In this document: piece by piece, positions 3,001-33,077 of the stretch
Position numbering within the stretch: the stretch's first letter is position 1
How the letters are laid out: every line of letters begins with the position of its first letter
From: Candidatus Poribacteria bacterium
GTDB taxonomy: Bacteria; Poribacteria; WGA-4E; WGA-3G
DNA length: 64,000 bases
Direction of reading: 5' to 3'
Assembly: GCA_003635185.1 (NCBI GenBank)
Contig: PYJA01000054.1
Span: 1-64,000 of the forward strand
The notes under the pieces: model-generated
What the model saw: the letters and a program-made list of their open reading frames with translations, nothing else
Told to the model about the DNA's origin: nothing
Database searches by the model: none
Position numbers and translations under genes: made by a program

Positions 3001-5007
3001 CCTGCTGATAATGCACAGCTCACTGAAGATATAACGCAAATACAGGTAAATCTGAATGATCAAGGCGGAAGCGGTATAGATTGGGATGTAACAACAGTAA
3101 TACTGGTTGACCCGAATGGAACAGAAATCTCTGGCGAACTTACCAGTAATGGAAAAACGCAGTTGATACTTAATACGAATCAACTTGTGGCAGATGGACG
3201 TTATACTATTCGTGTTCAAGCCATAGACAGAGCAGGAAACGGAAGTCAATCTGTTTTTGAAACGGATTTCTTACTCTCCAGACTCTTACCAGCTGTCATT
3301 TCTACATCACCAAGTACTGCTCCAAAAGATGAAGCGTATACAAATGAGAAAATTGAAGAAATTGAGGTGATGCTTGAAACAGCAGATGAAAATCACCTTT
3401 CGACGCTTCGCTTACTGAATTCTGAAAATCAAGAGATCGCAGGACAACAGCATCGGGAATCTGATCGGTTAATCTATTCGCTTGTCCGTCCGCTTGCCAC
3501 AGATGGGTCAGAAGACGGTGTTTACACCATTGAGTTCACACCAATTAGTGCGTCTGGACGTAGTGGTGAAGTCCAGAGATTGACCTTCACCTACGATACA
3601 CAAGTGCCTGAAGTTGAACCGGAGGCGATACGTCTCATTGTTGCGGAACCCGAAGTCAACAATTCCTTGATAGAAATTCGCGTTACGCTCACGGATAATC
3701 AAGCCGGAATTGATTGGGAAAACCTCAATGAAGAATGGTTGGCATTTGAACGACTTTCACCGAACGCGGCTGAAATCGCTGGGCATCTATCTTATGAAAC
3801 AGGGGAACAAGAGACTCTTATTTTCCGACTCACCGTTCCGCTTGCAGATGACGGTTCTGCCGATGGGGAATACCAAATTACCATTACCCCTAAAGACCAA
3901 GCGGGAAATGGGGATGAAACTTACGAAGAGGTATTTGTCTACGATACAAGCCCACCCATTATTGATCCTAACTCGCTACTTATCAATGATGCCCCATTGC
4001 TCACCGACATTGATGCGGAGGATTACCCAAGCGCAATTTCCACAACCGGCGGTGTTGTCATCCAAGCGAGTGTCTCTGATACGGGGTTAGGTGTTGACCT
4101 ATCACGTTCGCAAATCGTTGTAAGAAATCCTAACGGTCAAGAAATTTCCGGCACTACCCGACAAAACGGTGTGGATACCATTAGTTTCAAATCGGATGGA
4201 TTGAATGTTGAAGGCGTATATCAAGTTACGATTACAGGTATTGGGAATGACTCTGAACTGCTCGGATTTGTGCCTAAAGGTTCAATCACAACGGAATTCC
4301 TTTATGAAACTACAGCACCGACTGCTGTTTTAACCAACGATGGCGGAAAAACTGAGTTTACCGATGAAGCAGTGCCTTTTGAAGGAACGGCTTCTGATCC
4401 GCGGGGTTCGCGACCACGTCCACAAGGTGAAGGTGAGATCCCCATCCCAGCATCCGGTGTATGGCTTGTGGAAATCATTGGAACCGGTCCCGATGGACAA
4501 CCTATTGAACCTATTCCCGCTGAGGATGAAAGCAACGCACAAGAGCAACCGTGGAGCCGTTGGTCAGCAGACTTCCTCCCCGCCCGGTCAGGTGAATACG
4601 ACTTAGATCTCCGTGTTACTGACAAAGCGGGTAACTACGCTGTTTACGATGTTGGTGAGGTTACGATGTCGGTTTCCTTCTCTTTCCGTGGAAAAACCTT
4701 CGGATGGCCAAACCCGCTACGGCATTCCAAAAACGATGTCGCCTTCTTTTCTTTTGACCTGAATACTTCAGCGGATGAAACAGTCGAATTGGCGCTTTAC
4801 ATCTATGACTGGGGTGGTGACATGGTTTATTCCAAAAAATACACCGGAATAACACTGGGACAGCGAAATGATACACAGATTAAATGGAATTTAGAAAACC
4901 AAGCTGGAATGCCAGTAGCGCGAGGCCTTTACGTGTTCCGTTTAGAAGCAGTTAATGGAGCAGGAAATCGCGCCAACGCCGTAGGCAAGGTCCTTGTCGT
5001 TGACTAA
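1..5007 (+). CDS. Giant secreted Ig-like repeat protein with FlgD-type C-terminal domain (5' end outside window)
   Basis: The frame is open through base 1, so the gene starts upstream. At least 1668 residues are present. The body is a string of roughly 100-residue beta-sandwich repeats, many carrying PLPTDGSADGxYT, DKAGN and FxYDTQxP signatures. These look like bacterial Ig-like or cadherin-like adhesive repeats, and no catalytic motif is visible. The last ~100 residues (from FGWPNPLRHSKNDVAFFSF, with LYIYDWGGDMVY and GLYVFRLEAVNGAG) match the FlgD Ig-like fold, which often sits at the C-terminus of exported proteins and resembles type IX secretion C-terminal domains. A PorV/PorQ-like barrel follows after 38 bp, probably in the same operon. 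Likely a surface or extracellular structural protein; ligand unknown. Confidence 0.85.
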   Translation, partial: PSSTVYVNSGDVTIVAMFTEPTGVGLALGDDGSTIVVTNAAGVTVQGVTQSNGTNQLTWTATPLPTDGSADGVYTATITPIDKSGRSGKVVNRQFIYDTQVPRISAATPITLHQPTSYLRSLTQFQLTVEDVGPALLDLAVQTITFTKKDGDAVLGQITHDGVNQLFFTLSTPLPTDGSADGEYILTVDLVDKAGNAYQTTHNIFYDSQAPSLSSVSLGTETPLVLTPYQITDISESINSLTLTFVEATQVDFANTTIDLIGPNNSPIPLTLENNGVDQITTSFVSLTQDGLYRLSVTPQDKVGNTAQGAVPYPFRLRFEVPGLSSVKANTTNTSVELTPYEIMEIPESVSSLTLEFTDTTQVDLMNTRVTLRGPDGQEISVTIEDDESQLVVRFVSLTQNGVYTFAVTPQDKAGNVAQSATQYQFRLDTALPTVSSVLIDGKSGSVVYVRNAIPRIVATITDPIGVGVSLRDGGSTITVTNSEDLPVSGTISSNGTNQLVWTSIPLPTDGTADGRYTVAITPVDKSGRSGTVVNRQFIYDTQVPRITAASPITLHAPVSYIRSGIDAFVLTLEDVGPAGLDLASQVVALMDAERKPVSATLTRDELSNQLYLTLSKPFASDGSVDGAYSLNVRLIDKAGNTSISEFSLVYDSKAPQISLVEVNTAGTPMKLVSNEITELAESISTIMIEFAEATRVDFENTQVSLLDPNDQTIPLTREDDGVSQMTLSFADLTQSGQYTLSVAPQDIAGNATQSPMQFAFNLEFILPGVESVIIGNTVTLGSGDIAYVNANNLQIVANLLDPAGTGLSFDTTGSALQVATLDNTIVPGRTATNGTDVIVWEPVTLSNDGSSDGRYAVYVTPVDKKGREGNTVYREFVFDTQEPEITAAEPINLSQPVSYISESLTQFRFTLQDVGPADLTLDDQKVSLRNQNGTIIPTKLTNDTNNQLYLTLDEPLPLDGSRDGEYTVVIAFSDKAGNVLSVEHPIVYDTQAPTLVSTVPADNAQLTEDITQIQVNLNDQGGSGIDWDVTTVILVDPNGTEISGELTSNGKTQLILNTNQLVADGRYTIRVQAIDRAGNGSQSVFETDFLLSRLLPAVISTSPSTAPKDEAYTNEKIEEIEVMLETADENHLSTLRLLNSENQEIAGQQHRESDRLIYSLVRPLATDGSEDGVYTIEFTPISASGRSGEVQRLTFTYDTQVPEVEPEAIRLIVAEPEVNNSLIEIRVTLTDNQAGIDWENLNEEWLAFERLSPNAAEIAGHLSYETGEQETLIFRLTVPLADDGSADGEYQITITPKDQAGNGDETYEEVFVYDTSPPIIDPNSLLINDAPLLTDIDAEDYPSAISTTGGVVIQASVSDTGLGVDLSRSQIVVRNPNGQEISGTTRQNGVDTISFKSDGLNVEGVYQVTITGIGNDSELLGFVPKGSITTEFLYETTAPTAVLTNDGGKTEFTDEAVPFEGTASDPRGSRPRPQGEGEIPIPASGVWLVEIIGTGPDGQPIEPIPAEDESNAQEQPWSRWSADFLPARSGEYDLDLRVTDKAGNYAVYDVGEVTMSVSFSFRGKTFGWPNPLRHSKNDVAFFSFDLNTSADETVELALYIYDWGGDMVYSKKYTGITLGQRNDTQIKWNLENQAGMPVARGLYVFRLEAVNGAGNRANAVGKVLVVD

Positions 5008-5045: not shown

Positions 5046-6017
5046 ATGCACAAAAGTGTAGTTGTAGCAATTTTAATCTTAACTCTATCGTTAACCGTAC
5101 CCCAAAGTTTCGCAGCTGATATCCATGATAGTGCCGGCACCGCTGGTGCTGCATTTCTCAAAATTGAACCGGGAAGCAGACCCGTAGGCATGGGGGGAGC
5201 ATTTGCGGGATTGGCAAATGACATTAACACTATCTTTTGGAATCCTGCAGGTCTAACTTCTGTACACACACGAGAACTTACCGCTATGCAACACTTCTCG
5301 TATGTTGACATCAACAACCAATCAATTGGATACGCGCAGCGTGCGAAACAATTCGTGTGGGGGGCAAGCTTTCTCGGGAGTTTCACTGAAATTGAGCGGC
5401 GCATCGGTCCAACCGAAACCCCGGATAGCACAGTAACGGTAGGTGGGTTTGCTACAGGTTTATCTCTCGCGTATCCACTGGGCACATCCGCTTCCATCGG
5501 CGGTACAGCGAAGTTTATTTCACAGCAATTGGATATTCAGAACATCTACGGTGCCGCAGCAGATATCGGCTTGATCTTGCGGTTATTAGACAATCATCTC
5601 GGCATTGGGATTACCGTCCAAAATGCTGGTGTGTTAGGTGGTGAAGAAAATCCTCCGATGGCACTCCGTGCTGGGCTCGCTTACAGAACTTGGAAACAAC
5701 CCGAAGCGGATTCTGAAGAAGCGATGCCACCGCGAGAGGTATGGGCTTTCGTGGCAGATGCACATCTTCCACTCATTGACGCTAATCCCAGTTTCCACCT
5801 CGGCGTTGAAAGGTGGTTTTACGATATCGTTGCCGCACGGGTCGGCTATCGTATCGGTCTAAATCAAAACCCAAGTGATGGATTATCGATCGGCATCGGT
5901 GTTCGGAAGGATGGGCTGGACTCATTAGCGAACATAGACTTCCAATTCGATTACGCTTTTGTCCCCGATGCTTATGTCGGCAATTCGCATCGAATTTCTG
6001 TCATCACAAGATTTTAG
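5046..6017 (+). CDS. PorV/PorQ family outer-membrane beta-barrel protein
   Basis: The 323-residue protein has an N-terminal signal peptide ending near SFAADIH. The opening of the mature part, AAFLKIEPGSRPVGMGGAF followed by NDINTIFWNPAGL, is the hallmark of the PorV/PorQ (UPF0164) family of outer-membrane barrels. The rest alternates in a beta-strand pattern and ends in F after ISVITRF, as expected for a barrel. PorV in Bacteroidetes shuttles proteins carrying a C-terminal domain through the type IX system; whether this homologue does so is unknown. The ATG has a good AGGAG site. The gene follows an Ig-repeat protein with an FlgD-type C-terminal domain, a plausible client. Confidence 0.85.
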   Translation: MHKSVVVAILILTLSLTVPQSFAADIHDSAGTAGAAFLKIEPGSRPVGMGGAFAGLANDINTIFWNPAGLTSVHTRELTAMQHFSYVDINNQSIGYAQRAKQFVWGASFLGSFTEIERRIGPTETPDSTVTVGGFATGLSLAYPLGTSASIGGTAKFISQQLDIQNIYGAAADIGLILRLLDNHLGIGITVQNAGVLGGEENPPMALRAGLAYRTWKQPEADSEEAMPPREVWAFVADAHLPLIDANPSFHLGVERWFYDIVAARVGYRIGLNQNPSDGLSIGIGVRKDGLDSLANIDFQFDYAFVPDAYVGNSHRISVITRF

Positions 6018-6026
6018 GACATAATT

Positions 6027-6092
6027 TTAATGTGATTCTTTTCGGTAGATGCGGTTTCCTAACCGCACACTCAGCAAGACGAATCACGTTAA
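6027..6092. repeat. Nested inverted repeat in the convergent 3' region
   Basis: An outer inverted repeat (TTAATGTGATTC at 6027-6038, GAATCACGTTAA at 6081-6092) encloses a perfect hairpin TGCGGTT/AACCGCA at 6050-6067. The inner hairpin shares the GGTTTCCTAACC core with the REP-like palindromes found elsewhere in the window. Confidence 0.6.
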
Positions 6093-6111
6093 TTTGGTAT
6101 TATCTCCTTGA

Positions 6112-6141
6112 AAAAGTAGGCGCGGTTTGAAACCGCGCCTA
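6112..6141 (-). terminator. Rho-independent terminator downstream of nadA
   Basis: A perfect 12-bp palindrome around one central base spans 6117-6141 (TAGGCGCGGTTT, g, AAACCGCGCCTA). Read on the minus strand it is followed by ACTTTTTC. It lies about 27 bases past the nadA stop and between two convergent genes, so it probably ends nadA transcription. Confidence 0.7.
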
Positions 6142-6167
6142 TCAATTTTACTATAACGATTTTATTT

Positions 6168-7286
6168 CTATACGCTTGCTTCCAGCATACGTTCAATTGG
6201 CAAGCGAGCTTTATCAATCACTTCAGGATCCAACGTAACCTCGTATTCGGCAAGGTCTTCACCGCTGTCAATTGCTTCTAAAATGTTTGCAATCTTATCC
6301 AATCGGACTTTTGCCATGTGTGAACATCGCACGGAACACGCTGTCCAAAATTGAACTTTTGGAAATTCTTGTGCCAAATTGGAGGTTAATTCACATTCTG
6401 ACGCAACAAACGCCCGTTCTAACTGATCGTCTGCTACACGTGCTGCTATATCCTTCATAATTTGACTGGTGCTACCGTAGAAATCGGCTTCTTTCAGAAC
6501 GTTTGGCCGACATTCCCAGTGGGCGTATAATTTTCGCTTGGGGTGTCCTTTCGGAATTACAAAAGATTCACGTATTGCAAGTAGATCTGAGAGTGTAAAT
6601 CTTTCGTGAACTTCACAAACAGCACCGCGTGCCGTATTGTCTTTGCCAGGATAAACAACATTTTTTTCCCCCTTTAACTCTTCTTCCAAATTTTGTGCAA
6701 AGAAGATGTCAGGCACAAAAATTAACGTGTCTCCGGGCATGGACTTCGCAATATGTGCAGCATTTGCAGACGTACAACAGATATCAGATTCCGCTTTCGC
6801 GTCCGCATAACTATTGACATAAATCATTACGGGGGCACCGGGGTAAAGTTCTTTCAATTTCCGGACATCTTCCGCACCGAAGTTATCGGCAAGTGAACAC
6901 CCCGCTGTTTTATCTGCTACTAAAACAGTTTTGTTCGGACTCAGAATTTTAGCTGTTTCTGCCATGAACGGCACACCGTTAAAGATGAGGTAAGGCGCTT
7001 CCGTTTTTGCGGCGAACATACTCAGTCCAAGGGAGTCGCCCTGTTCCTCTTTTTCGGATAATCCGAAAACTAACGGCTCCATGTAGTTGTGACCTAACAT
7101 CACAACATCATGCTTTTGTTTCAATGTTCTTATCTTATGGACTGTTTTGGCATGTGCCTCTATATCAAGTGACGTTAAACTGGGGTGGTGTCGGTTATAT
7201 AATTCGTTTTTAACGTCCTCAAGTGTTAGTTCTTTATCGCCATTCTTTGCACTTTCCAGTTGGGGAGTTTTTCCCGTAGGATGCAT
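6168..7286 (-). CDS. nadA: Quinolinate synthase NadA
   Basis: NadA condenses iminoaspartate (from L-aspartate oxidase) with dihydroxyacetone phosphate to make quinolinate in de novo NAD synthesis, using a 4Fe-4S cluster. The 372-residue sequence carries the family motifs MLGHNYM, GDSLGLS, NGVPFMAETAKIL, the cluster cysteines in DKTAGCSLAD, AHWECRPNV and TACSVRCSHM, and the SDICCTSANA segment. The start was placed at the ATG at 7286, which has GGAG ten bases upstream; a GTG three codons earlier sits almost on that GGAG. No nadB or nadC is adjacent. The N-terminal ~35 residues before VHKIRTLK are a non-conserved extension. Confidence 0.95.
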   Translation of the reverse strand: MHPTGKTPQLESAKNGDKELTLEDVKNELYNRHHPSLTSLDIEAHAKTVHKIRTLKQKHDVVMLGHNYMEPLVFGLSEKEEQGDSLGLSMFAAKTEAPYLIFNGVPFMAETAKILSPNKTVLVADKTAGCSLADNFGAEDVRKLKELYPGAPVMIYVNSYADAKAESDICCTSANAAHIAKSMPGDTLIFVPDIFFAQNLEEELKGEKNVVYPGKDNTARGAVCEVHERFTLSDLLAIRESFVIPKGHPKRKLYAHWECRPNVLKEADFYGSTSQIMKDIAARVADDQLERAFVASECELTSNLAQEFPKVQFWTACSVRCSHMAKVRLDKIANILEAIDSGEDLAEYEVTLDPEVIDKARLPIERMLEASV

Positions 7287-7437
7287 GCTAATCACGCTCC
7301 AAGTTATTCGCTAATAAATGGGAGAATGTTTACAGACCCATTTTAGCAAGTCTTTTTTATTCTTATTAGGATACCCACAAATTCTATTTTTGTCAAGGGT
7401 AATACACAAAAACGCTAAAATTTTGCCAAATTTTAAT

Positions 7438-7938
7438 ATGAATATAAAAAAATTGTTTTGTTTTATCCTAATTACGTGTTTAATTTGGAATTTGAGTTTA
7501 TCTGCGGAGGGTTTTTCTGTTAAACTTAGAGGAAAACTCGCGTTAGCTGGTATTCTCTCAGGAGTTGCATATTTAACGCACTCGCTTGTCAAGCGTGATA
7601 AGCAGGCAGCGGAAAATATACGGATGCAACTTGGTACCCCCGATCGAATTATCCAATTTGAACGCGGATTCGACCAGTGGGATGTCTATCGTTACCGTGA
7701 ACATTCCTATTTTTTCCTAAACAACCGCTTTATAAGGAAAAAGACTCATAAAGCCTTTTTCCTCAATTCAGATAGTCCATTTTCTCTTACTTATAAGCCT
7801 GTTTCAGTGAACCCCAGGTGGTCGTCACTTTACCCTTTGCATCGACCACTAATCCTTCGTCCTGCAACTTCCTATCTGCATCTGTTGGAAGGCGGGCGTT
7901 GGCTTGTGCCGCGTTCGCTGCTTTCGTGTTTGAAGTAA
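7438..7938 (+). CDS. Small exported hypothetical protein with a suspect 3' end
   Basis: Translation from the ATG at 7438 gives a clear signal peptide (MNIKKLFCFILITCLIWNLS) and then about 80 plausible residues, including QLGTPDRIIQFERGFDQWDVYRY and FFLNNRF. The upstream part of the open frame is AT-rich and probably untranslated. From about residue 100 the composition changes, and from 7787 the frame runs antisense through the last 50 codons of a well-supported minus-strand gene. The genuine protein probably ended near 7735-7745, where a 9-bp inverted repeat lies. The segment with GTPD and W-x-VYRY loosely recalls small outer-membrane assembly lipoproteins, but I do not recognise the family. 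Confidence 0.5.
   Translation: MNIKKLFCFILITCLIWNLSLSAEGFSVKLRGKLALAGILSGVAYLTHSLVKRDKQAAENIRMQLGTPDRIIQFERGFDQWDVYRYREHSYFFLNNRFIRKKTHKAFFLNSDSPFSLTYKPVSVNPRWSSLYPLHRPLILRPATSYLHLLEGGRWLVPRSLLSCLK
7735..7763. terminator. Inverted repeat between converging genes
   Basis: AGGAAAAAG (7735-7743) and CTTTTTCCT (7755-7763) form a perfect 9-bp stem with an 11-base loop. It lies 24 bases beyond the stop of the minus-strand gene at 7787. It could be a weak terminator for that gene or the breakpoint of an insertion. Confidence 0.4.
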
Positions 7939-8467
7939 CAAAAATGGCATCCAATTTCGTAGCATCTTCACGCACACCAATACGTAAAACTGTTTCACCA
8001 GGTTTATCAAAATCCCATTCTCTGTCCAGTCTATCATTGTTATCTAACCAGTGATTGATACGATCCCAATGCCAAGCATTTCCACCAGCAACCGACCACC
8101 GGAATTGATTGTTGTTAGTTGCTTGCGGATTTTCGTTTGGATCGGCAGGTTGCCACGTCACCCAAAATGAATCACTGTTCCCATCCCAAGCGATTACATG
8201 ACCCCATAACGCATATTTGCCAGCTTCGGGAATGTTGATGATGAATTCTGCCCATCCTGTCCCTCCACCCCCTGTTGCCGGTTCTCCTGGTGCCCAGATG
8301 TATTTCCCATCTGATGCCAAGTTCTCATCGTCTGCAATCACCATCGGTGCTTGAATTGTATTTGCTAACTCCGCTTCAAGTGCAATTTCAACATCAGCTT
8401 GAAGTCCTACAGTTATTAATAGTCCTATTGTAAGGACAAGCATAGAAACGATAATATTAGATTCCAT
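7787..8467 (-). CDS. Secreted carbohydrate-binding-like protein with C-terminal TTWG tag
   Basis: The 226-residue protein starts at the ATG at 8467, which has AAAGGAG seven bases upstream. A signal peptide (MESNIIVSMLVLTIGLLITV) is followed by a beta-rich domain beginning IALEAELANTIQAPMVIADD, then GGGGTGWAEFIINIPEAGKYALWG and HWDRINHW. The pattern recalls the CBM6/35-like folds that open with an E-A-E motif and bind sugars or calcium. No catalytic residues are evident. It ends KVTTTWGSLKQAYK, a tag shared with five other proteins here. A tandem paralogue lies 112 bp upstream at 8579-9232. Binding target unknown. Confidence 0.8.
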   Translation of the reverse strand: MESNIIVSMLVLTIGLLITVGLQADVEIALEAELANTIQAPMVIADDENLASDGKYIWAPGEPATGGGGTGWAEFIINIPEAGKYALWGHVIAWDGNSDSFWVTWQPADPNENPQATNNNQFRWSVAGGNAWHWDRINHWLDNNDRLDREWDFDKPGETVLRIGVREDATKLDAIFVTSNTKAANAAQANARLPTDADRKLQDEGLVVDAKGKVTTTWGSLKQAYK

Positions 8468-8578
8468 GAAAAACTCCTTTCTATTTAAGATATAAGGTTC
8501 AGGTAGAGGCATCTAATAGATTACCTCTACCTGAACAGAGAAGGATATTCCTTCTTAGTATCTGTTGTGCAATTATCA

Positions 8579-9232
8579 CTATCTTTGCGCTTTGAGTTTC
8601 CCCCACGTTGTTGTGAGTTTTTCTCTCGGTTCAACAGGGGTTGCATCTTCGGGACCAGGGTCCCGAAGACTAACTTCCGCCTCATCAGCAGAAAGATTGT
8701 CTGTAATAAAGATAACATCCAACATTGCTGCATCTTCACGCACACCAATACGTAAAACTGTTTCACCAGCTTTATTAAAATCCCATTCTCTGTCCAGTCT
8801 ATCATTGTTATCTAACCAATGATTGATGCGATCCCAATGCCAGGCTTCTCCGCCAGCAACTGCCCACCGGAAGTGATTATTATTGGTATCCTGCGGGTTT
8901 TCATCAGGATCAGCAGGTTGCCAGGTTACCCAGAACGAGTCACTGTTACCATCCCATGCAATGACTTTGCCCCACAGTGCATAAGTGCCTGCTGCCGGAA
9001 TATCAATTACAAATTCTGCCCAACCTTCACCTCCACCTCCTGTTGCAGGTTCTCCTGGCATCCAAATGAATTTACCTCCTGATGCTTCACCATCTTCGGC
9101 GATTACCATCGGGGCTTCAATTGTGTCTGCCATTTCAGCCTCAATCGCACGATCATAGCTGTAACTGATACCATTTGCCAGCAATAATCCGACTGCAAAA
9201 AGCATACTAAAAACTAACATATTGTAACGCAT
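8579..9232 (-). CDS. Secreted carbohydrate-binding-like protein with C-terminal TTWG tag (paralogue)
   Basis: The 217-residue protein starts at the ATG at 9232, with AAAGGAG nine bases upstream on the minus strand. It has a signal peptide (MRYNMLVFSMLFAVGLLLAN) and the same domain as its neighbour at 7787-8467: IEAEMADTIEAPMVIAED, GGGGEGWAEFVIDIPAAGTYALWG and DSFWVTWQPADPDENPQ. It ends EKLTTTWGKLKAQR. A block of about 110 bp (8731-8843) is nearly identical to 7963-8073 in the paralogue while the rest has diverged, suggesting gene conversion. A foldback element lies 182 bp upstream in the same orientation. Function beyond probable glycan binding is not known. Confidence 0.8.
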   Translation of the reverse strand: MRYNMLVFSMLFAVGLLLANGISYSYDRAIEAEMADTIEAPMVIAEDGEASGGKFIWMPGEPATGGGGEGWAEFVIDIPAAGTYALWGKVIAWDGNSDSFWVTWQPADPDENPQDTNNNHFRWAVAGGEAWHWDRINHWLDNNDRLDREWDFNKAGETVLRIGVREDAAMLDVIFITDNLSADEAEVSLRDPGPEDATPVEPREKLTTTWGKLKAQR

Positions 9233-9413
9233 AAAAATATCTCCTTTATATTGAATTAGCACAAGATATGTGCCACTTGTTTGCTGTCATTTTCATATAG
9301 ACGTTAAGTTGCCTCATTGTTGATATTGTAAAAGTAACAGTCTTGCTGATAACGTAGTAGGACCACGCTGCCATTTTAGTTGTGCTGCACAAGCATCGTT
9401 GTCAATTACTATC
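9233..9413. other. Intergenic leader between foldback element and secreted-protein gene
   Basis: No gene is supported in these 181 bases. They separate the foldback element at 9414-9795 from the start codon at 9232 and probably form the 5' leader of the minus-strand gene pair. Confidence 0.4.
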
Positions 9414-12910: not shown

Positions 12911-12982
12911 ACATAGTGGGCGGTGGATTCTACCTTCCGCTTGGAAGTGCCACCGCACCGTTTAGAAGCGGCATCACTATGT
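12911..12982 (+). ncRNA. Structured 5' leader of tnpB
   Basis: ACATAGTG (12911-12918) pairs with CACTATGT (12975-12982). Inside, GCGGTGG (12920-12926) pairs with CCACCGC (12950-12956) and contains CTTCC/GGAAG (12934-12938, 12943-12947). A small CCG/CGG hairpin (12958-12960, 12969-12971) completes a three-way junction. The fold begins at the predicted transcription start and ends just before the AAGGA ribosome-binding site of tnpB. It may be a cis-regulatory RNA or part of the element's terminal structure. Confidence 0.5.
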
Positions 12983-12995
12983 GAAGGAAAACACT

Positions 12996-14183
12996 ATGTA
13001 TATCACCAAACGAAAAGTTAAGCATAAAAGGACTCAACAATTAGACGCTCTTGCACGTGAATCTGGACGCTGTTATTCTAAAGTCGTATCGCTTGTTAGA
13101 AAAACTTTCAAAAAGAAAGGTTTCTGGCTTTCCAAAGGTGTTATTCAAAAATATATGCGTCACAAGAAGTATACGTTGCATTCTCAATCTGTCCAAGCAT
13201 GTGCGGATTCATATTTTGATTGTCTCAAAAGTTTCTTTCAAGTGAGAAAGTCTGATCCTGAAGCGAAACCACCGAAACGGACACGGAAGTATTTCAAGGT
13301 GCGTTGGAAATCAGGTGCAATCCGTCTCAAGAATGGTCAACTCATACTCTCCAATGGTAAAGGGCAAGACCCAGTGATACTTGAGAATATATCGGAAAAA
13401 CCGAAGTATGTTGAGATGCATTTCAAAAAAGGACACTACTACTTTGCACTTGTCTATAAAGTTGATGTTCCTCTAAAACAAGAAACAGGTCCCACTGTTT
13501 CTGTGGATATGGGTGAAATCCACCCGATTGTAAGTTTTAATGGTGAACGAACTACCCTCTATAATGGTCGTTTTGTGCGGTCTATCAAACGATATAGGGA
13601 GAAAATCAAAACAAATTTTCAAGCCAAAATGGATAGATGTGAGAAACGATCAAGAAAGTGGTTTAGACTTCTGAAAGCGAAACGCAGGACTTTAGAAAAA
13701 CTTGACGCACAACTCCAAGATGCTGAACATAAAATCACGTCACGCTTTATATCTGACTGCCAAAGAGCGAAGGCAGATACGATTGTGATTGGCGATCTAA
13801 ACGGCATCCGAAAAAACATCAAGTATGGAAAAAAAGTCAATCAGAAACTGCACCAATGGGCTTTTTCAAGAATAGCAGATAAAGTCCGGTATAAGGCGGA
13901 ACTCGCTGGCATCAAAGTTGTTTCTGAATCTGAGGCATACACCTCACAAACGTGTCCAAAATGTGGACATAGAAAGAAACCAAGCAACCGAAACTATCAC
14001 TGCAAACATTGTGATTTCAAATATCACAGAGACGGTGTCGGTGCGATAAACCTACACAGAAAAGTATCTGGGGTGATAAATACCCCTGTTAGTCGGGACC
14101 CTGGCAGTCCCCTCGGTGTCAGATTCAACTGGCATCTCAGTCGCCTTGGCTTAAACCCAAGGAAGCCTGCTATAAGCAAGTAA
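12996..14183 (+). CDS. tnpB: TnpB RNA-guided nuclease-like protein (IS200/IS605 OrfB family)
   Basis: The 395-residue protein begins MYITKRKV at an ATG with AAGGA upstream; a GTG five codons earlier lies inside the leader stem. It has a basic N-terminus, a RuvC fold and a four-cysteine zinc ribbon (CPKCG...CKHC). RuvC acidic residues are visible at about D171 (VSVDMGEIHP) and D346 (HRDGVGAINLH). At the middle RuvC motif the usual IxxEDL reads IVIGDLNG, so the glutamate is replaced by Gly. A nearby Glu in SESEAYTSQTC may substitute, as in reported TnpB variants with a rearranged active site. TnpB proteins are transposon-encoded RNA-guided DNA nucleases. No tnpA is nearby. Confidence 0.9.
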   Translation: MYITKRKVKHKRTQQLDALARESGRCYSKVVSLVRKTFKKKGFWLSKGVIQKYMRHKKYTLHSQSVQACADSYFDCLKSFFQVRKSDPEAKPPKRTRKYFKVRWKSGAIRLKNGQLILSNGKGQDPVILENISEKPKYVEMHFKKGHYYFALVYKVDVPLKQETGPTVSVDMGEIHPIVSFNGERTTLYNGRFVRSIKRYREKIKTNFQAKMDRCEKRSRKWFRLLKAKRRTLEKLDAQLQDAEHKITSRFISDCQRAKADTIVIGDLNGIRKNIKYGKKVNQKLHQWAFSRIADKVRYKAELAGIKVVSESEAYTSQTCPKCGHRKKPSNRNYHCKHCDFKYHRDGVGAINLHRKVSGVINTPVSRDPGSPLGVRFNWHLSRLGLNPRKPAISK

Positions 14184-17722: not shown

Positions 17723-18511
17723 ATGAAAATAAGATTTTTATTTATAATATTCATCTCTATATTGTTTGTTGTGTCTTTCACGCATGCAGCAAATGAACCA
17801 GAGGAGTCGCTCATCCTATACATGTCTTTTGATACAGTTGATGGCAAAAGCACAATTGACCATTCACTGTATGAAAACCACGGTGAAATGATGGGCGATC
17901 CGAAACATGTTACTGGCAAATTTGGAAAAGCGCTCAAATTTAACGGAGTATCCGAATTTGTCGAAATTCCACACCATGAATCGCTTACTGTGGATCAGGA
18001 TGTCACAGTCATGGCTTGGATTCATACTGAGAGACATACAGGACCAGATGAAGCACGATGGCAAGGTATCATGGCAAAAAGTAACAACCCACGTTCATAT
18101 AGTTTATGGACTGATTCAAACAATAAGTGTTTACACTTCAGTGTAGGCCCACCGCAAGGTGGTGGTAGTGTTTGTCAAGGTGAAGTCAAGTTAAATGCAT
18201 GGCAACATATTGTGGCTCAATTTAATAATGGAACACACCGTTATTGGATTAATGGGCAAAAAGTTGGAGAAACCGGTAACAAGCCGAATCCTCCTGGTTT
18301 AGAAGATACATCACCTGTCGTCATTGGAACTGCGGGTGGAGGGAATCAGCGATATTTTCTCGGTATGATTGACGAAGTACGCATCTGGAACCGTGCCCTC
18401 ACTGAAGAAGAGATTAATAAACAGATGGGTAAAGGTCATTTTGAACTTTTTCCTGTTGTTCCTCAAAACAAATTGACAACTACTTGGGGCAACCTGAAGG
18501 TTCAATATTGA
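17723..18511 (+). CDS. Secreted LamG-fold protein with C-terminal TTWG tag (1 of 4)
   Basis: The 262-residue protein has a signal peptide (MKIRFLFIIFISILFVVSF, cleavage near THAAN) and a single LamG/concanavalin-like jelly-roll domain: LILYMSFDTVDGKSTIDHSLY, GKFGKALKFNGVSEFVEIPHH, DVTVMAWIH, HRYWINGQKVG and IDEVRIWNRALTEEEI. LamG domains bind sugars or proteins, often with calcium. The last residues are NKLTTTWGNLKVQY, the tag shared by six proteins here. A 76-bp block near codon 32 is almost identical to the paralogue at 20153, with one difference. Ligand unknown. Confidence 0.9.
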   Translation: MKIRFLFIIFISILFVVSFTHAANEPEESLILYMSFDTVDGKSTIDHSLYENHGEMMGDPKHVTGKFGKALKFNGVSEFVEIPHHESLTVDQDVTVMAWIHTERHTGPDEARWQGIMAKSNNPRSYSLWTDSNNKCLHFSVGPPQGGGSVCQGEVKLNAWQHIVAQFNNGTHRYWINGQKVGETGNKPNPPGLEDTSPVVIGTAGGGNQRYFLGMIDEVRIWNRALTEEEINKQMGKGHFELFPVVPQNKLTTTWGNLKVQY

Positions 18512-18592
18512 TAAGATGGACGAGTATTTTGGTTTCAACTGTGTTAGCAAAAGATACTTACGAACCCATATAATCTATATGAGGCAGAGAAT

Positions 18593-19366
18593 ATGAAATC
18601 ACTTTGGGTTATACCAACACTTTTAACATTTATTGTTACCTTCGCGTACGCGTTAAATGAACCGGAGGATTCACTCATTCTCTATTTCTCTTTTGATGAA
18701 GTCGACGGTAATAACACCATTGATCATTCACTGTATGAGAACCATGGCGAACTGAAAGGTGCGCCAAAACTGGTTGATGGTAAGTTCGGTAAAGCACTTG
18801 CACTGAACGGTACAAGCGACTGGGTTGAAGTCCCACATCATGAAACGCTCACCGTTGACAAAGATGTTACTGTCATGGCTTGGATTCATACGGAACGTCA
18901 TGAGGGCCCCAACAACCAAAGGTGGCAAGGAATTATTGCAAAGAGCAACAACCCGCGTTCTTACAGTCTTTATACCGAAATTCCAAGTAAATGTATGGCT
19001 TTCAGTGTCAACAGTGGCACAAGTGTTTGTACCGGGGAAGTCCAGTTAAATACGTGGCAACATGTCGTTGCACAGGTTGATGGTACTACCCACCGGTATT
19101 GGCTAAACGGCAAAAAAGCAGGCGAATTTGAGAATAAAAAACCTCCGCCCGGCAAGGCCGATACGCAAAATGTTCGTATTGGTAGGACACACGAAGCACA
19201 ACGCGAGTTTTTAGGAATGATAGATGAAGTTCGGGTTTGGAATCGCGCACTTAGTGAACAAGAGATTATTGAACATAAGGATAAAGGTTATTTCAGGTTT
19301 TTCGCTGTTGACCCGAAACTGAAATTAGCTACCACTTGGGGTAACTTGAAGGGACAACGGCGATAA
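18593..19366 (+). CDS. Secreted LamG-fold protein with C-terminal TTWG tag (2 of 4)
   Basis: The 257-residue paralogue starts at the ATG at 18593, with GAGG upstream. It has a signal peptide (MKSLWVIPTLLTFIVTFAYA) and the same LamG domain: SLILYFSFDEVDGNNTIDHSLY, GTSDWVEVPHHETLTVDKDV, QHVVAQVDGTTHRYWLNGKKAG and MIDEVRVWNRALSEQEI. It ends LKLATTWGNLKGQRR. The gap of 81 bp from the previous LamG gene shows no terminator. Downstream lies a repeat-rich stretch and then a foldback element before the third LamG gene. Confidence 0.9.
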   Translation: MKSLWVIPTLLTFIVTFAYALNEPEDSLILYFSFDEVDGNNTIDHSLYENHGELKGAPKLVDGKFGKALALNGTSDWVEVPHHETLTVDKDVTVMAWIHTERHEGPNNQRWQGIIAKSNNPRSYSLYTEIPSKCMAFSVNSGTSVCTGEVQLNTWQHVVAQVDGTTHRYWLNGKKAGEFENKKPPPGKADTQNVRIGRTHEAQREFLGMIDEVRVWNRALSEQEIIEHKDKGYFRFFAVDPKLKLATTWGNLKGQRR

Positions 19367-19587
19367 AATGGACGGTCAGCTTTGATTCGTCCGCAAAGGG
19401 TTTCCGCTGCATTATGAAACAATGCTGGCTTGTAGCATAAACTTCCAGTTTGTGCTATAGGATATGGTTTCTGCTGCATTATGAAACAATGTTGGCACTA
19501 CACAGATGCACAAACTGGAAGTATGTGCTACAAGTTCCTACTGTATTATGAAACAATGCTTACGGAGACTCTTTAATATCTATAAAA
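19367..19587. repeat. Intergenic stretch with three copies of a GCATTATGAAACAATG motif
   Basis: The motif (C/T)TGCATTATGAAACAATG recurs near 19408, 19468 and 19538, the last with a slight change. It alternates with segments related to the CAAACTGGMAGT...TGTGCTAC sequence seen in the TATAGT foldback elements. No gene is supported; it looks like layered remnants of short repeats. Confidence 0.55.
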
Positions 19588-19719
19588 TAACGTGAATTTG
19601 ATAAATGAATTATTAGACATTTTTATGATTTAATCAGAGTGGGTGCTTTGTCTATTCGCTATTAAAAAAATGACAAGAATTCTATAAGGCCCCAAATGTT
19701 GTGTGTTTTTAGAAAAAAT

Positions 19720-19749
19720 TTGACATTTTTTGCGTTTAGTAGGTATAAT
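19720..19749 (+). promoter_or_regulatory. Consensus sigma-70 promoter inside the foldback element
   Basis: TTGACA (19720-19725) and TATAAT (19744-19749) are 18 bp apart. It reads toward the LamG gene at 20153 and lies only in this copy of the element, in the segment missing from copy 1. Confidence 0.75.
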
Positions 19750-19943
19750 AACGCTGTGAATAGGTAAGACGAACAAAAAATTGCGTTCCCATGCATTTTA
19801 GTGTTCAGACTTAGGACTTTGGACAATGAAAAACCGACAAACGAATCACCATTTAGAGATAAACGTTTCAGATATTTATCGTCTGCGCGGAGATTGGGCA
19901 GGTGTCCTGCTTGCGGGTTTCGTTTTAACATCCGGTTTTGAAT

Positions 19944-19956
19944 CCCCCCCCCCCCC
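19944..19956. repeat. C13 homopolymer tract
   Basis: Thirteen C between the element's promoter and the LamG start at 20153. The equivalent tract in copy 1 is twelve long. Confidence 0.85.
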
Positions 19957-20152
19957 ACGTTACATTAAGTATAACACATTGCAAAAAAATAACTGTGAAA
20001 GTATTAGCGGTTCTGCCGCTTTGCGCCCGCACGTGCATTTTGGCTCGTGGCGGGTTTTTGTTGTTATATTGAAAGGGATTCTAATGTGTGTGAATCGTTA
20101 TAGTTATAATATCTATTATCAAACTCACGTTTATTTAAATTAAGGAGGAAAA

Positions 20153-20923
20153 ATGAAAACCCTATTTGTAATGTTAACAATTATAGCGTTTGTGGCTTCT
20201 TTTGCCCACGCGTTAAATGAACCAGAAGATTCGCTTATTCTTTACATGTCTTTTGATACAGTTGATGGCAAAAGCACAATTGACCATTCACTATATGAAA
20301 ACCACGGTGAAATGATGGGCAATCCGAAACATGTTGAGGGTAAATTCGGCAAAGCGCTCGAACTCAACGGTTCAAGTGATTGGGTTGTTGTACCACATGA
20401 TGATATTCTCACCGTTGATAAGGATTTTACCGTTATGGCTTGGATTAATACAGAAAGACATACGGGGCCTAATGACCAGCGGTGGCAAGGAATTGTAGCA
20501 AAGGGCAATGCGCCTCGTTCTTATAGTTTCTATACTGAATCTCCAAGTGAATGTTTACACCTCAGTGTGGGAGGTACAGGAAGCGTTTGTAATGGGAAAG
20601 TCGCATTAAATGAATGGGTACATGTGGTTGGACAGATGGAAAACGGAACTCACAGGTATTGGATTAATGGAGAGAAAGCCGGGGAATTTGCAGGCAAAAA
20701 TCCACCACCCGGTAAAGCCGATACAGCAAATGTTCTCATTGGAAGAACACACGAAGGAAATCGAGAGCTCCTCGGTTTGATTGACGAAGTCCGCATCTGG
20801 AACCGTGCCCTTACTGAAGATGAGGTGACTGAACAGATGGAGAAAGGGCATTTTGAGCTCTTTCCTGTCGAACCACGTCAAAAATTAACAACGACGTGGG
20901 GAACTCTAAAAACTCAAAGATAA
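20153..20923 (+). CDS. Secreted LamG-fold protein with C-terminal TTWG tag (3 of 4)
   Basis: The 256-residue paralogue starts at the ATG at 20153 with a strong AAGGAGG. It has a signal peptide (MKTLFVMLTIIAFVASFAHA), one LamG domain (SLILYMSFDTVDGKSTIDHSLY, SSDWVVVPHDD, HRYWINGEKAGEF, LIDEVRIWNRALTEDEV) and ends QKLTTTWGTLKTQR. Its 5' side is the right end of foldback element copy 2. The putative promoter and C13 tract of that element lie within 435 bp of the start, so the element may drive the gene. The fourth LamG gene follows after 26 bp and is probably co-transcribed. Confidence 0.9.
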   Translation: MKTLFVMLTIIAFVASFAHALNEPEDSLILYMSFDTVDGKSTIDHSLYENHGEMMGNPKHVEGKFGKALELNGSSDWVVVPHDDILTVDKDFTVMAWINTERHTGPNDQRWQGIVAKGNAPRSYSFYTESPSECLHLSVGGTGSVCNGKVALNEWVHVVGQMENGTHRYWINGEKAGEFAGKNPPPGKADTANVLIGRTHEGNRELLGLIDEVRIWNRALTEDEVTEQMEKGHFELFPVEPRQKLTTTWGTLKTQR

Positions 20924-20949
20924 TAATTAATTAGGAGGAAATAATAACT

Positions 20950-21723
20950 ATGAGGTTTATGTTTGTTATATTAATTCTTACCGCGTTTGTTGCGTCTTTC
21001 GCTAACGCAGCAGACGAATCGGACGATTCGCTTATTCTCTATTTCTCTTTTGATGAATTAGATGGTGATATGACAATTGACCATTCGCAATATGAGAATA
21101 ATGGGGCTATAATTGGTGCTCCTGAATTGGTAGATGGTAAGTTTGGAAAGGCACTTAAATTTAATGGCACAAGTGATTGGATTGAAGTGCCACATGATCC
21201 CATTCTTACCGTTGAAACGAGTGTAACTGTGATGGCATGGATAAATGCTGAAAGACACATGGGACCGAATAACCAACGTTGGCAAGGTGTCCTCTCAAAG
21301 GGTAATAGTCCACGTTCTTATAGTTTCTACACTGAATCACCAAGTGAATGTTTGCACCTGAGTGCTGGTGGTAGTGGTAGTGTTTGTACCGGAAAGATTG
21401 CACTCAACGAATGGCAGCATGTGGTTGGACAAGTAGATGATGGCACACATCGGTATTGGCTAAACGGCGAAATGGTCGGTGAATTTGGTGGCAAAAATGC
21501 TTTGCCCGGCGCTGCTGATACTTCAAGTGTTTTCGTAGGCAGAACGCCAGAAGGGAATCGTCAGTTCCTCGGATTGATTGACGAAGTTCGTATCTGGAAT
21601 CGCGCGCTCACTGAAGAAGAAGTTATCGCGGAGATGGAATCCGGCTATCAATCGGGAACTGCTGTCGATCCGCGTGCCAAATTAGCCACAACGTGGGGAT
21701 ATCTGAAAACATCACAACGATAA
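20950..21723 (+). CDS. Secreted LamG-fold protein with C-terminal TTWG tag (4 of 4)
   Basis: The 257-residue paralogue starts at the ATG at 20950 with TAGGAGG upstream. It has a signal peptide (MRFMFVILILTAFVASFANA), a LamG domain (SLILYFSFDELDGDMTIDHSQY, GTSDWIEVPHDPILTV, HRYWLNGEMVGEF, LIDEVRIWNRALTEEEV) and ends AKLATTWGYLKTSQR. It is closest in wording to the third paralogue (RSYSFYTESPSECLHLS is shared). A strong terminator 30 bp downstream closes the cluster. Confidence 0.9.
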   Translation: MRFMFVILILTAFVASFANAADESDDSLILYFSFDELDGDMTIDHSQYENNGAIIGAPELVDGKFGKALKFNGTSDWIEVPHDPILTVETSVTVMAWINAERHMGPNNQRWQGVLSKGNSPRSYSFYTESPSECLHLSAGGSGSVCTGKIALNEWQHVVGQVDDGTHRYWLNGEMVGEFGGKNALPGAADTSSVFVGRTPEGNRQFLGLIDEVRIWNRALTEEEVIAEMESGYQSGTAVDPRAKLATTWGYLKTSQR

Positions 21724-30090: not shown

Positions 30091-30158
30091 TAACGTTAGC
30101 TCGGTAAAAGTCTTAAAATGTATTAACAACAGACATTATGCTAAAGCGGAGAAATAAA

Positions 30159-33077
30159 ATGCGTCGAATTATCATAACAATTCTTGCTGTTTTCCTATCG
30201 GTTTCCACAACAACTTTTGCAACAGATTACGTCCTAATTCTCGGTGGCGTTGGCGGTGAGAAATCCTACTATGACCAATTTTGGAGTGCAACTTCCCGAT
30301 TCCATCAGCTGCTTACACAGGAATACGGATTAGATTCGGAGCAGATTACCTTCCTTTTTGAAGATGAAGGTAATCTCCTAGGGCTTGTCACGGGTGAAGC
30401 GAAGCGAGAGCCTATTTTAGAGGCATTTGCCCAACTTGCTGAGAAGGTCCAACCGACAGATAGATTTATTCTTTTCATGGTAGGGCATGCATCGCGAACT
30501 TCGTCAGGTGTAAAATTTAATTTGCCGGGGCGAGACATCAGTCAACAAGAATACACCGATAGTATTAACAACATTCCTGCAGAACAGCAACTACTCGTCT
30601 TTGGATTCCCTTATAGTGCAAGGATAGTACAAGGCATCAGCAAATCAGGGCGAATAATCATTACATCCAGTTCTTCACGTGAAGGTTATGCTTCTCAAGC
30701 CGGTTTCGGGGACATTTTCGTTGATGTTTTCTCTGAACCTTATGCGGATACAAACGATGATGGTGCAATATCGCTTTTAGAGGCGTTCCTCTGGGTGCAA
30801 ACTCGCGTTGATGAATGGTATACAGAAGATGGTGCAATTCAAGCAGAACACCCGCATCTGGATGATAATGGTGATGGACGCGCCTCGCGTAAGGATTTAG
30901 AAGCAAATGGTGAAGGGGCACTCGCTGATAAAACGTTTTTAGGAACACGCCGGACACCTCTGCCGCCAAAAGAGCAAAGCACTATAGAAAATCCACAAGA
31001 GGCGCAAAACGAATCACCAACCCCACATGCAAACGAAAATGGCCATAACCATGGCGAGGCCCCTCCAGATAAAAAAGAACAGGGAGAAATGAAGGGGAAA
31101 TCGTCACTGCCATATAATTTTATTAGCGAAGCAGACAAACAAGCTATCCAAGAGAGCATTGAAAACGCCCCTGCCGAACCGAATAATCCGGAGGAAGGCG
31201 CAATTGTGCTGTGGGAAGCAGAGGTTTATGACGTTGACGAAGATAGCAGACATGTCTATTCCACACGACGAGTCGTCAAAATATTCAGTGAAGATGGATA
31301 TCACTTCGGTGAAATTAGAATTCCTTATACGCAAAATGCAGACGATGTTACTATCCATCACGCGCGAACGTTTAAACCTGACGGCACTCAAGTGAAATTG
31401 GATGAGCGTAAAATTGTTCGCGGGCTTACACCCGCCAGTTTTGCTGAAGCCGGATTGATCGTTGATACCCGCTTGATGTATTTTGAATTGCCGGATATAT
31501 CTGACGGTTGTATCATTGATTATGCCTATTCTACCAGAAACCCGCGAGGTGCCATGAAGGGTGAATTTTGGCGACAAGTCTATTTTCAGGTTGACGTGCC
31601 TGTTCAGTCCTATCGCCTCACGGCACATATTCCGAAGAAAACACCACTATTTTACCGAGTGGACGGACCTCCGATTGAACCAACTATCACGGAGAACAAT
31701 TATACTCGCGCCTATACATTTGAAACGAAAGATGTGCCAGCTTTGCATAGAGAACCCTTGATGCCTGCTGTTTCAGATTTTGCCTATAACATTAGCCTCT
31801 CCTCAATTGATTCATGGGATAAACTGATCACGTGGTACGCAACACTAATTCGTGAACAGGATAGAATTACAAAGGAAATTGAAGCGAAAACGAAAGAGAT
31901 ACTCACCGGGGCATTGTCACGTCAGGAAAAAATTAAGAGACTCTACGAATTTGTTGCGACAAACATCCAGTACGCTGGGGATGAACGTGGAATATGGGGT
32001 ATCAAACCGATTGCTGCCGCTAAGGTGTTAGAGGGAAAATGGGGAGATTGTAAGGGTAAATCAACGCTACTTTCAACGATGCTGCGCGTGGCAGGGATTG
32101 ATTCTTATCCAGTCCTTATCTCCGCGGGCAAGCCGAGTAGAATTGTCCCAGAAGTTCCATCTCTTGCATATTTTAACCACATGATCCTTGCAGTAGATGG
32201 CGGGAAAGGTAAAGACCTGATATGGCTTGACCCGACTGCGCAAACATGTGCTTTCGGTGATTTTCCTGTCAGTGACCAAAATCGGTGGGCATTGATTGTC
32301 AATACTGATGCCCCAACAACAGATGGCATGGATGTAAGGACTGCAGACACACCTGTCCAAGATCAGGAAAAACTGGATGGGAAAAAAGTCAAAAGTCTCC
32401 TCTACGCTTTTCAAAAGAGTCCAGCACTCCCTGCAGATTCAAATGTGAGACATACAAAAACTCATGTTATAATCAAAAAAGATTTGAGTGTAGAAGTTGC
32501 ACATGAATTACGGGTTTCTGGAGATTTCAATGCAAGATTGCGAGCACATCTTTTAGGTGCTGATCATCGTGAAGAACGAATCCAATTTCTGCGACGTACT
32601 TTGGAATTAGATGAACGTGCCAAAGTGGAACATTTTGAAATCTCGGATGTCAAGCAGTTGGGACCTGAATTAAAGATTAGCCTCACGTGGTCATGTAAGG
32701 AATACCTATACAAAATGGGTGACCAATTTATTTTGGAACTTCCTGTCGTAGAACATCCGTATGCCGAATTGTTGAGAGAAGATGAACGCAACCATCCCGC
32801 TGTTCTGGGTAAGGCACTTACTTTTGAAGACCAAATCTCTGTGGAGGTAGAGGCTCCATTTACTGTAAAGATGGTGCCTGATCCGCAAAAACTTAAGATG
32901 GATGTCGCTGAAATCCATATAGATTATACAAAATCCGGACAGAAAGCAGGAATGAAACAAACAATTCGTTTCCACGCACCGAAAGTGGAAGCATCCCAAA
33001 TCTCAAATCTCACGAATGTTATCAGAATTGCTTCAAGCCAAAGCACAAAACGATTTATCTTAATTCAAAAACCGTAG
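30159..33077 (+). CDS. Caspase-like domain fused to DUF3857 and transglutaminase-like domains
   Basis: The 972-residue protein starts best at the ATG at 30159 (GGAG seven bases upstream). After a signal peptide comes a caspase/C13-like domain (YVLILGGVGGEKSYYDQFW, FILFMVGHAS, then LLVFGFPYSARI where active members have a cysteine). Two EF-hand-like loops follow (DTNDDGAISLLEA, DDNGDGRASRKD). A His/Pro-rich linker leads to a DUF3857 domain (about residues 350-560) and a transglutaminase core with Cys in KWGDCKGKSTLLS, His in YFNHMILAV and Asp in WLDPTAQ, then a DUF3858-like tail. The nuclease-like cysteine is missing from the first domain, so it is probably non-catalytic. Exported or periplasmic; exact role unknown. 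Confidence 0.82.
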   Translation: MRRIIITILAVFLSVSTTTFATDYVLILGGVGGEKSYYDQFWSATSRFHQLLTQEYGLDSEQITFLFEDEGNLLGLVTGEAKREPILEAFAQLAEKVQPTDRFILFMVGHASRTSSGVKFNLPGRDISQQEYTDSINNIPAEQQLLVFGFPYSARIVQGISKSGRIIITSSSSREGYASQAGFGDIFVDVFSEPYADTNDDGAISLLEAFLWVQTRVDEWYTEDGAIQAEHPHLDDNGDGRASRKDLEANGEGALADKTFLGTRRTPLPPKEQSTIENPQEAQNESPTPHANENGHNHGEAPPDKKEQGEMKGKSSLPYNFISEADKQAIQESIENAPAEPNNPEEGAIVLWEAEVYDVDEDSRHVYSTRRVVKIFSEDGYHFGEIRIPYTQNADDVTIHHARTFKPDGTQVKLDERKIVRGLTPASFAEAGLIVDTRLMYFELPDISDGCIIDYAYSTRNPRGAMKGEFWRQVYFQVDVPVQSYRLTAHIPKKTPLFYRVDGPPIEPTITENNYTRAYTFETKDVPALHREPLMPAVSDFAYNISLSSIDSWDKLITWYATLIREQDRITKEIEAKTKEILTGALSRQEKIKRLYEFVATNIQYAGDERGIWGIKPIAAAKVLEGKWGDCKGKSTLLSTMLRVAGIDSYPVLISAGKPSRIVPEVPSLAYFNHMILAVDGGKGKDLIWLDPTAQTCAFGDFPVSDQNRWALIVNTDAPTTDGMDVRTADTPVQDQEKLDGKKVKSLLYAFQKSPALPADSNVRHTKTHVIIKKDLSVEVAHELRVSGDFNARLRAHLLGADHREERIQFLRRTLELDERAKVEHFEISDVKQLGPELKISLTWSCKEYLYKMGDQFILELPVVEHPYAELLREDERNHPAVLGKALTFEDQISVEVEAPFTVKMVPDPQKLKMDVAEIHIDYTKSGQKAGMKQTIRFHAPKVEASQISNLTNVIRIASSQSTKRFILIQKP

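Follow-up and report, generated by a model that had tools for sequence, protein, structure and literature searches.

Six proteins with a shared C-terminal tag

The stretch of DNA analysed here (64,000 nucleotides, hereafter the window) corresponds to contig C54 of a Candidatus Poribacteria genome of 4.57 Mb that is 82% complete. It encodes four LamG proteins and two proteins resembling carbohydrate-binding modules (CBMs) that end in the same short peptide, the tag considered in this work. An initial interpretation made from the window alone (the sequence-only reading) had described a C-terminal KLxTTWGxLKxQR motif on these six proteins and proposed that it directs sorting, anchoring or processing. 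The motif is present where it was described on all six, in the form K[LV][TA]TTWGxLK, with a distance to the stop codon of 13-14 residues counted from the lysine. The KLxTTWGxLK core is real, but the conserved unit is longer than the sequence-only reading had it, starting at a valine five residues before the lysine (V[ED]PxGKLxTTWGx[IL]K) and spanning about 17-20 residues. The consensus derived from 132 carriers in 11 genomes reads [TLA]-[AP]-V-[ED]-P-x-[GD]-K-L-[TAS]-T-T-W-G-x-[LI]-K. The pattern used for selection fixed the tryptophan and the last lysine, and the lysine at the start of the core was built into the DNA pattern applied to other genomes; the valine was free to vary, yet is kept in 122 of the 132 carriers. 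Profile searches also admit W[GA] and variant forms of the TT pair, and the shorter consensus adopted in the best explanation of the tag reads [AP]-V-[ED]-P-x-G-K-L-[TAS]-T-T-W-[GA]-x-[LI]-K.

The tag is tied to the end of the protein. Across 60 loci, 90 occurrences are C-terminal and none is internal, all confident profile matches are C-terminal, and the stop codon usually follows 0-4 residues after the last lysine. The sole internal case found is one protein in which the tag is followed by the C-terminal domain (CTD) of a type IX secretion system (T9SS) substrate. As the sequence-only reading stated, the tag has no hydrophobic helix, and the residues from the motif to the stop codon contain no hydrophobic stretch; its statement that cysteine is absent has to be relaxed to almost never. 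Synonymous codons of the invariant residues are used nearly at random (lysine AAA 53, AAG 50; threonine ACA 34, ACC 31, ACG 24, ACT 14), and this near-even scrambling indicates that selection acts on the peptide and not on the DNA.

AlphaFold2 models of the two folds in the window place the tail apart from the folded domain, with a low-confidence stalk and a short predicted helix at WGxLK or just after it. The CBM-like protein is modelled as a beta-sandwich (mean predicted local distance difference test score, pLDDT, 85.4) closest to CBM6/CBM35. In the CBM-like protein at 8579-9262, residues 199-207 have pLDDT below 50 and precede a short helix at residues 210-215 (WGKLKA), while in the LamG protein at 20153-20923 pLDDT falls below 50 at residues 235-238 and 249-256 of the tail.

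Distribution of the tag

In the window's own genome, a DNA pattern encoding TTWG is found 64 times and its reversed control 16 times, and a 30-base pattern for KxxTTWGxxK is found 32 times and its control never. Of 85 Poribacteria genomes, 84 contain the 30-base pattern (1-66 copies each), compared with none of 302 genomes from outside the phylum. A profile of 26 positions was derived from 40 tails; with E values up to 1 admitted, it returns 115 matches in this genome (best E 1.4e-11) and 65, 91 and 150 in three other Poribacteria, compared with 0, 0, 0 and 1 (E 0.98) in four outgroup genomes. Over all 387 genomes, the profile finds the tag in 85/85 Poribacteria, with 19-21 significant matches each among the 21 candidates scored, and outside the phylum in 1/302 genomes, as a single borderline match (E 9.6e-4). 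Since pattern and profile matches exceed the counts in the reversed controls and outgroups, the motif is not a product of chance. G009, one of the three other Poribacteria just mentioned, has 0 matches to the DNA pattern and had looked like a tag-less exception; this was rejected when the profile recovered the variants TTSWG and AATWA. The search of the genome and its relatives that the sequence-only reading had called for thus finds a phylum-wide tag. In the regions of the window's own genome that were examined, 42 open reading frames (ORFs) end in the tag; two of the tagged ORFs (L034 and L042) are shorter than 100 amino acids and have an upstream part that is missing or out of frame, by a contig end or a frameshift.

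Carriers and their export signals

The proteins that carry the tag are mostly small (200-430 amino acids) and highly diverse. When the last 22 residues are removed, 195 carriers fall into 40 unrelated clusters (BLAST E 1e-5). The two folds of the window are indeed unrelated, as had been claimed, but the tag is not limited to them. Pfam assigns binding or structural folds to some carriers (LamG, PD40 propeller, CBM9, CBM4_9, NPCBM, F5/8C, PKD), enzyme folds to others (3-keto-disaccharide hydrolase, esterase, serine beta-lactamase-type hydrolase, S9/abhydrolase, M12-type metallopeptidase), and DUF4960. Homologues of the CBM-like protein were found only in Poribacteria records (61 loci), and about 101 of 104 members of this family keep the tag while the linker columns vary more.

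By a hydrophobicity heuristic, a signal-like N-terminus is present on 40 of the 42 carriers from the window's own genome; the remaining two are truncated ORFs. A cruder test of the same kind is positive for 105/111 carriers versus 249/558 background ORFs. The expectation of signal peptides on diverse domains is borne out for nearly all carriers. A loose lipobox pattern occurs in 5/111 carriers, none of them convincing on reading, and the carriers do not qualify as anchored lipoproteins.

Features of the window

The coordinates of the carriers, their tags and the other relevant genes are collected in Table 1. The listed starts of the two CBM-like ORFs probably lie upstream of the true starts, which expose the signal peptide; for the first of them the likely start is MESNIIVSML... 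or MLVLTIG.... The PorV/PorQ-family gene, whose product belongs to a candidate family for the recogniser, lies on the strand opposite to the CBM-like pair, with another gene between them (5046-9262).

Table 1. Tag carriers, tags and type IX secretion genes (window coordinates unless a locus is named)
Feature	Position	Strand	Basis or remark
Carrier, CBM6/35-like beta-sandwich paralogue	7787..8512	-	Fold from 66%-identical paralogue at 8582-9232; no Pfam match
Tag VDAKGKVTTTWGSLK, then QAYK and stop	7802..7846	-	Profile match 7796-7846
Carrier, CBM6/35-like beta-sandwich, family found only in Poribacteria	8579..9262	-	Likely start MRYNMLVFSML at 9232; no Pfam match
Tag VEPREKLTTTWGKLK, then AQR and stop	8591..8635	-	Motif and profile match
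Carrier, LamG_3 (PF13385)	17723..18511	+	Pfam
Tag VVPQNKLTTTWGNLK, then VQY and stop	18455..18499	+	Motif and profile match
Carrier, LamG_3	18593..19366	+	Pfam
Tag VDPKLKLATTWGNLK, then GQRR and stop	19307..19351	+	Motif and profile match
Carrier, LamG_3	20153..20923	+	Pfam
Tag VEPRQKLTTTWGTLK, then TQR and stop	20867..20911	+	Motif and profile match
Carrier, LamG_3	20950..21723	+	Pfam
Tag VDPRAKLATTWGYLK, then TSQR and stop	21664..21708	+	Motif and profile match
Protein of the PorV/PorQ family (T9SS shuttles), close to the CBM-like pair	5046..6017	+	NF033709, 115.6 bits, cut-off 90
T9SS core locus L312 (G000 contig C16:19500-29500)	820-8611	-	
T9SS core locus L313	1144-8037	+	

Next to the PorV-family gene, the window encodes a large adhesin-like protein with Ca_tandemer repeats (19-5007, + strand), the last 137 residues of which match the C-terminal end of the PorU model. 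An ORF at 12981-14183 (+ strand) resembles by eye an IS605-type TnpB/OrfB transposase with a CPxCG zinc ribbon.

Type IX secretion in Poribacteria

Earlier work on single-cell genomes found TIGR04183 domains in Poribacteria, while the structural genes of the T9SS were not found (Kamke et al., 2014; PMC3909097). In the genomes surveyed here, SprA-like proteins of about 2,150-2,300 amino acids occur in 84/85, mostly under the curated cut-off (the full-length protein of L313 scores 182.3 bits, cut-off 200). PorV-family proteins (13-25 per genome) and PorU-like C25 peptidases are each found in 24/24 genomes. The window's own genome has, beside a PorV-family gene, one for a PorU-like protein that scores 417.7 bits (cut-off 420). 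The PNPFNP element of type A CTDs is present in 83/83 genomes, 8-95 times each. Judged by homology, a T9SS core of SprA-like, PorU-like and PorV-family proteins with type A CTDs is present throughout the phylum; the combination of SprA/Sov, PorV and PorU expected of a genome with T9SS substrates is found phylum-wide, the SprA-like scores being mostly below the curated cut-off and the PorU-like score of the window's own genome slightly below its own.

The tag and the T9SS CTD alternate on related proteins. Among 56 CTD proteins, 11 have an N-terminal domain homologous to that of a tag carrier (for example, 46% identity over 194 amino acids), and an esterase-like domain carries the CTD in one genome (G002) and the tag in another (G001). 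This alternation on homologous domains supports a role of the tag in sorting and suggests a common destination, either outside the cell or on its surface. In a minority of CTD proteins a tag-like segment directly precedes the type A CTD, the best being AVEPTGKQATTWGKVKDAEVFQNYPNPFNP (profile E 4.6e-7); the remaining segments, VEPKGKKLVTLGQIKRNQLLQNFPNPFNP and similar, resemble the tag by eye but score poorly. Loci with such segments are L210/L012 (a VCBS-like protein), L215, L216, L221, L232, L074 and L142. The pre-CTD segment may have given rise to the stand-alone tag or may derive from it.

A putative targeting signal

The explanation favoured here, with somewhat better than even confidence, is that the tail serves as a C-terminal signal that targets proteins for outer-membrane translocation or for placement on the surface, irrespective of the machine by which it is read. 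That tagged proteins are delivered to the surface seems fairly likely; that the T9SS is the reader is a more tentative proposal. The sequence-only reading held that such tags usually direct sorting, anchoring or processing. A short peptide, conserved at the protein level, carried by unrelated exported proteins and exchanged for the T9SS CTD speaks for a role in sorting; a recogniser gene was not identified.

Under this explanation, carriers would be exported by the Sec pathway and lose their signal peptide before the tag acts. The flexible VEPxGK stalk would then offer TTWGxIK, a short element containing the Trp, to a periplasmic or outer-membrane receptor. This receptor would either move the folded domain (lectin, carbohydrate-binding, propeller or enzyme) out of the cell or keep it at the surface. 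The most likely reader would be a T9SS-like apparatus acting through one of the 13-25 PorV-family barrel paralogues, in which case the tag would join the type A and type B CTDs as a third class of T9SS signal, and a very short one. Whether as such a class or as a separate outer-membrane export route, a 17-residue linear tag read by a dedicated PorV-family barrel is conceivable, at a little under even chances.

Several observations weigh against these proposals. The search for SprA found none in the genome to which the window belongs (82% complete), and the exchange of tag and CTD is evidence of common cargo types, not of a common machine. T9SS cores occur in other phyla without the tag, as in Bacteroidota, so a T9SS is not by itself a sufficient explanation. 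Known CTD features are missing from the tag (no PNPFNP, GxY or beta-sandwich), and the export signals of its carriers were called by hydrophobicity and not by SignalP. Gene neighbourhoods also give no support: clustering of 806 ORFs around carriers produced no recurrent non-carrier neighbour resembling a sorting factor, so that the co-occurring recogniser family anticipated by the sequence-only reading was not identified by this approach. Nor are carriers generally accompanied by an excess of PorV genes, a single syntenic block excepted.

That block is the one seen in the window, where the CBM-like pair and the PorV gene are kept together in about 44 of 61 orthologous loci (among L149-L209); a general linkage of PorV genes and carriers was accordingly rejected as real at this one syntenic locus only. 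A region of the window that looked caspase-like (30138-33074) was also discarded as a recogniser candidate, since TPR-type repeats alone had brought its protein into a cluster with the others. Recurring beside carriers in five genomes (L086, L097, L118, L120, L136, L139) is a multi-pass membrane protein of about 640 amino acids, and a similar C-terminus precedes SprA in L313; by eye the protein resembles a transporter, and it may just be common in the phylum.

Alternative roles for the tag

The tag could instead serve in docking, with proteins exported by another route and the tag binding a scaffold, S-layer or glycan non-covalently, in the manner of a dockerin, for joint display. Most carriers consist of one binding module or are small hydrolases, which recalls scaffolded systems for glycan degradation, the modelled stalk is detached and flexible with a short helix, and the tag can precede a T9SS CTD (L210), as if both functions combine. 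However, the strict C-terminal position (0 internal among 90) suits a signal for export or sorting better than a docking module, and no cohesin-like partner turned up, though no search aimed at one was made; docking is considered unlikely. Still less probable is a processing or attachment site, where a PorU-like sortase would cut the tag and join the new C-terminus to a surface glycan without the large CTD. PorU-like proteins are present phylum-wide (that of the window's own genome scores 417.7 bits against a cut-off of 420), and tag-like segments stand at the expected T9SS CTD cut position in a few CTD proteins. Yet conservation up to the last lysine with only 0-4 residues beyond leaves little to cleave, and PorU in known T9SS works on cargo brought by a full CTD.

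The free C-terminal position and the lack of a membrane anchor would also suit a retention or quality-control signal, keeping proteins in the periplasm or feeding them to a C-terminal-specific protease or chaperone. This appears very improbable, given folds typical of surface or extracellular proteins, homologues that have T9SS CTDs instead, and the implausibility of a degron on so many conserved families. Finally, several carriers are tandem paralogues, such as the LamG and CBM-like pairs of the window, as expected of a functionless segment inherited or copied between paralogues. The sequence-only reading had itself named restriction to LamG/CBM paralogues, or occurrence on cytoplasmic proteins, as the outcome pointing to mere inheritance; what is found are unrelated clusters after tag removal, nearly all with signal peptides, as well as scrambled synonymous codons, conservation across all families of the phylum and retention by nearly all CBM-like members over a more variable linker. 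Such an origin is scarcely credible.

Significance

Poribacteria are an uncultured, largely sponge-associated phylum that is abundant in many marine sponges. The tag, so far seen only in this phylum, is used by dozens to more than 100 proteins per genome and defines a previously unlabelled, phylum-wide set of exported proteins (65-150 profile matches in the four genomes searched in depth). The 26-position profile alone lists the likely surface or secreted lectins and enzymes of any poribacterial genome. If the T9SS reads the tag, the minimal signal would fall from about 43 to about 17 residues, the smallest known of the T9SS type; if it does not, some new pathway of export or display awaits discovery. 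Type IX-like export also appears to be present throughout Poribacteria, in which its structural genes had been reported lacking (PMC3909097).

Comparison with known C-terminal signals

Searches of Pfam, NCBIfam and PDB did not return the tag, their few weak matches looking like chance, and NCBIfam gave no match on the tail in 42 carriers or 40 tails. A literature search limited to open-licence papers found no KLTTTWG, KLATTWG, TTWGxIK or TTWGxLK and no poribacterial C-terminal tag. The view that no described system has this motif therefore stands for the libraries and literature searched.

With PEP-CTERM/exosortase systems, the tag shares the many-to-one logic of a C-terminal signal preceded by variable residues, but it has no transmembrane helix and lacks the arrangement of PEP motif, helix and basic cluster; exosortase (PF09721) was found in 0/24 Poribacteria genomes. 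LPXTG signals are likewise short C-terminal motifs on exported proteins, whereas the tag has neither LPXTG nor a helix, and sortase (PF04203) was found in 0/24 of these genomes. The lack of a hydrophobic helix and the failure to find either enzyme in these 24 genomes agree with the earlier judgement that this is not a sortase or exosortase tag. In Gram-negatives, GlyGly-CTERM/rhombosortase systems similarly mark secreted proteins from many families by a short signal at the C-terminus (PMC3237569), but that signal has a membrane helix and a basic tail, while GG and helix are both missing from the tag, in a comparison that covered the signals and not the rhombosortase gene. Type I secretion substrates have no N-terminal signal peptide, which differs from the carriers, and no dockerin (a calcium-binding domain of about 60-70 residues) was among the Pfam matches of carriers, cohesin not being searched.

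There is a close likeness to the T9SS type A CTD (TIGR04183; PorV shuttle, PorU sortase). Both are C-terminal signals on Sec-exported proteins of many folds (for the carriers, as judged by the heuristic), with the same kinds of cargo, homologous N-terminal domains and the core machine in the same genomes. The shortest described CTDs have 43-55 amino acids, and in type A CTDs the final basic residue is preceded by motifs B, D and E (GxY) (PMC11969387). The tag differs from such a folded domain of at least about 43-50 residues with motifs B/D/E, being 17-20 residues long as against 43-100, with a predicted flexible stalk and short helix. Type B CTDs are folded, have 100-235 amino acids and are often linked to a shuttle gene, whereas the tag is short and unlinked. 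They nevertheless provide the precedent of a distinct C-terminal signal class with its own barrel shuttle: the T9SS of Bacteroidota has two signal classes with different barrel shuttles, type B (TIGR04131) using PorP/SprF (PMC12618676), which makes a third class read by one of the many PorV paralogues plausible.

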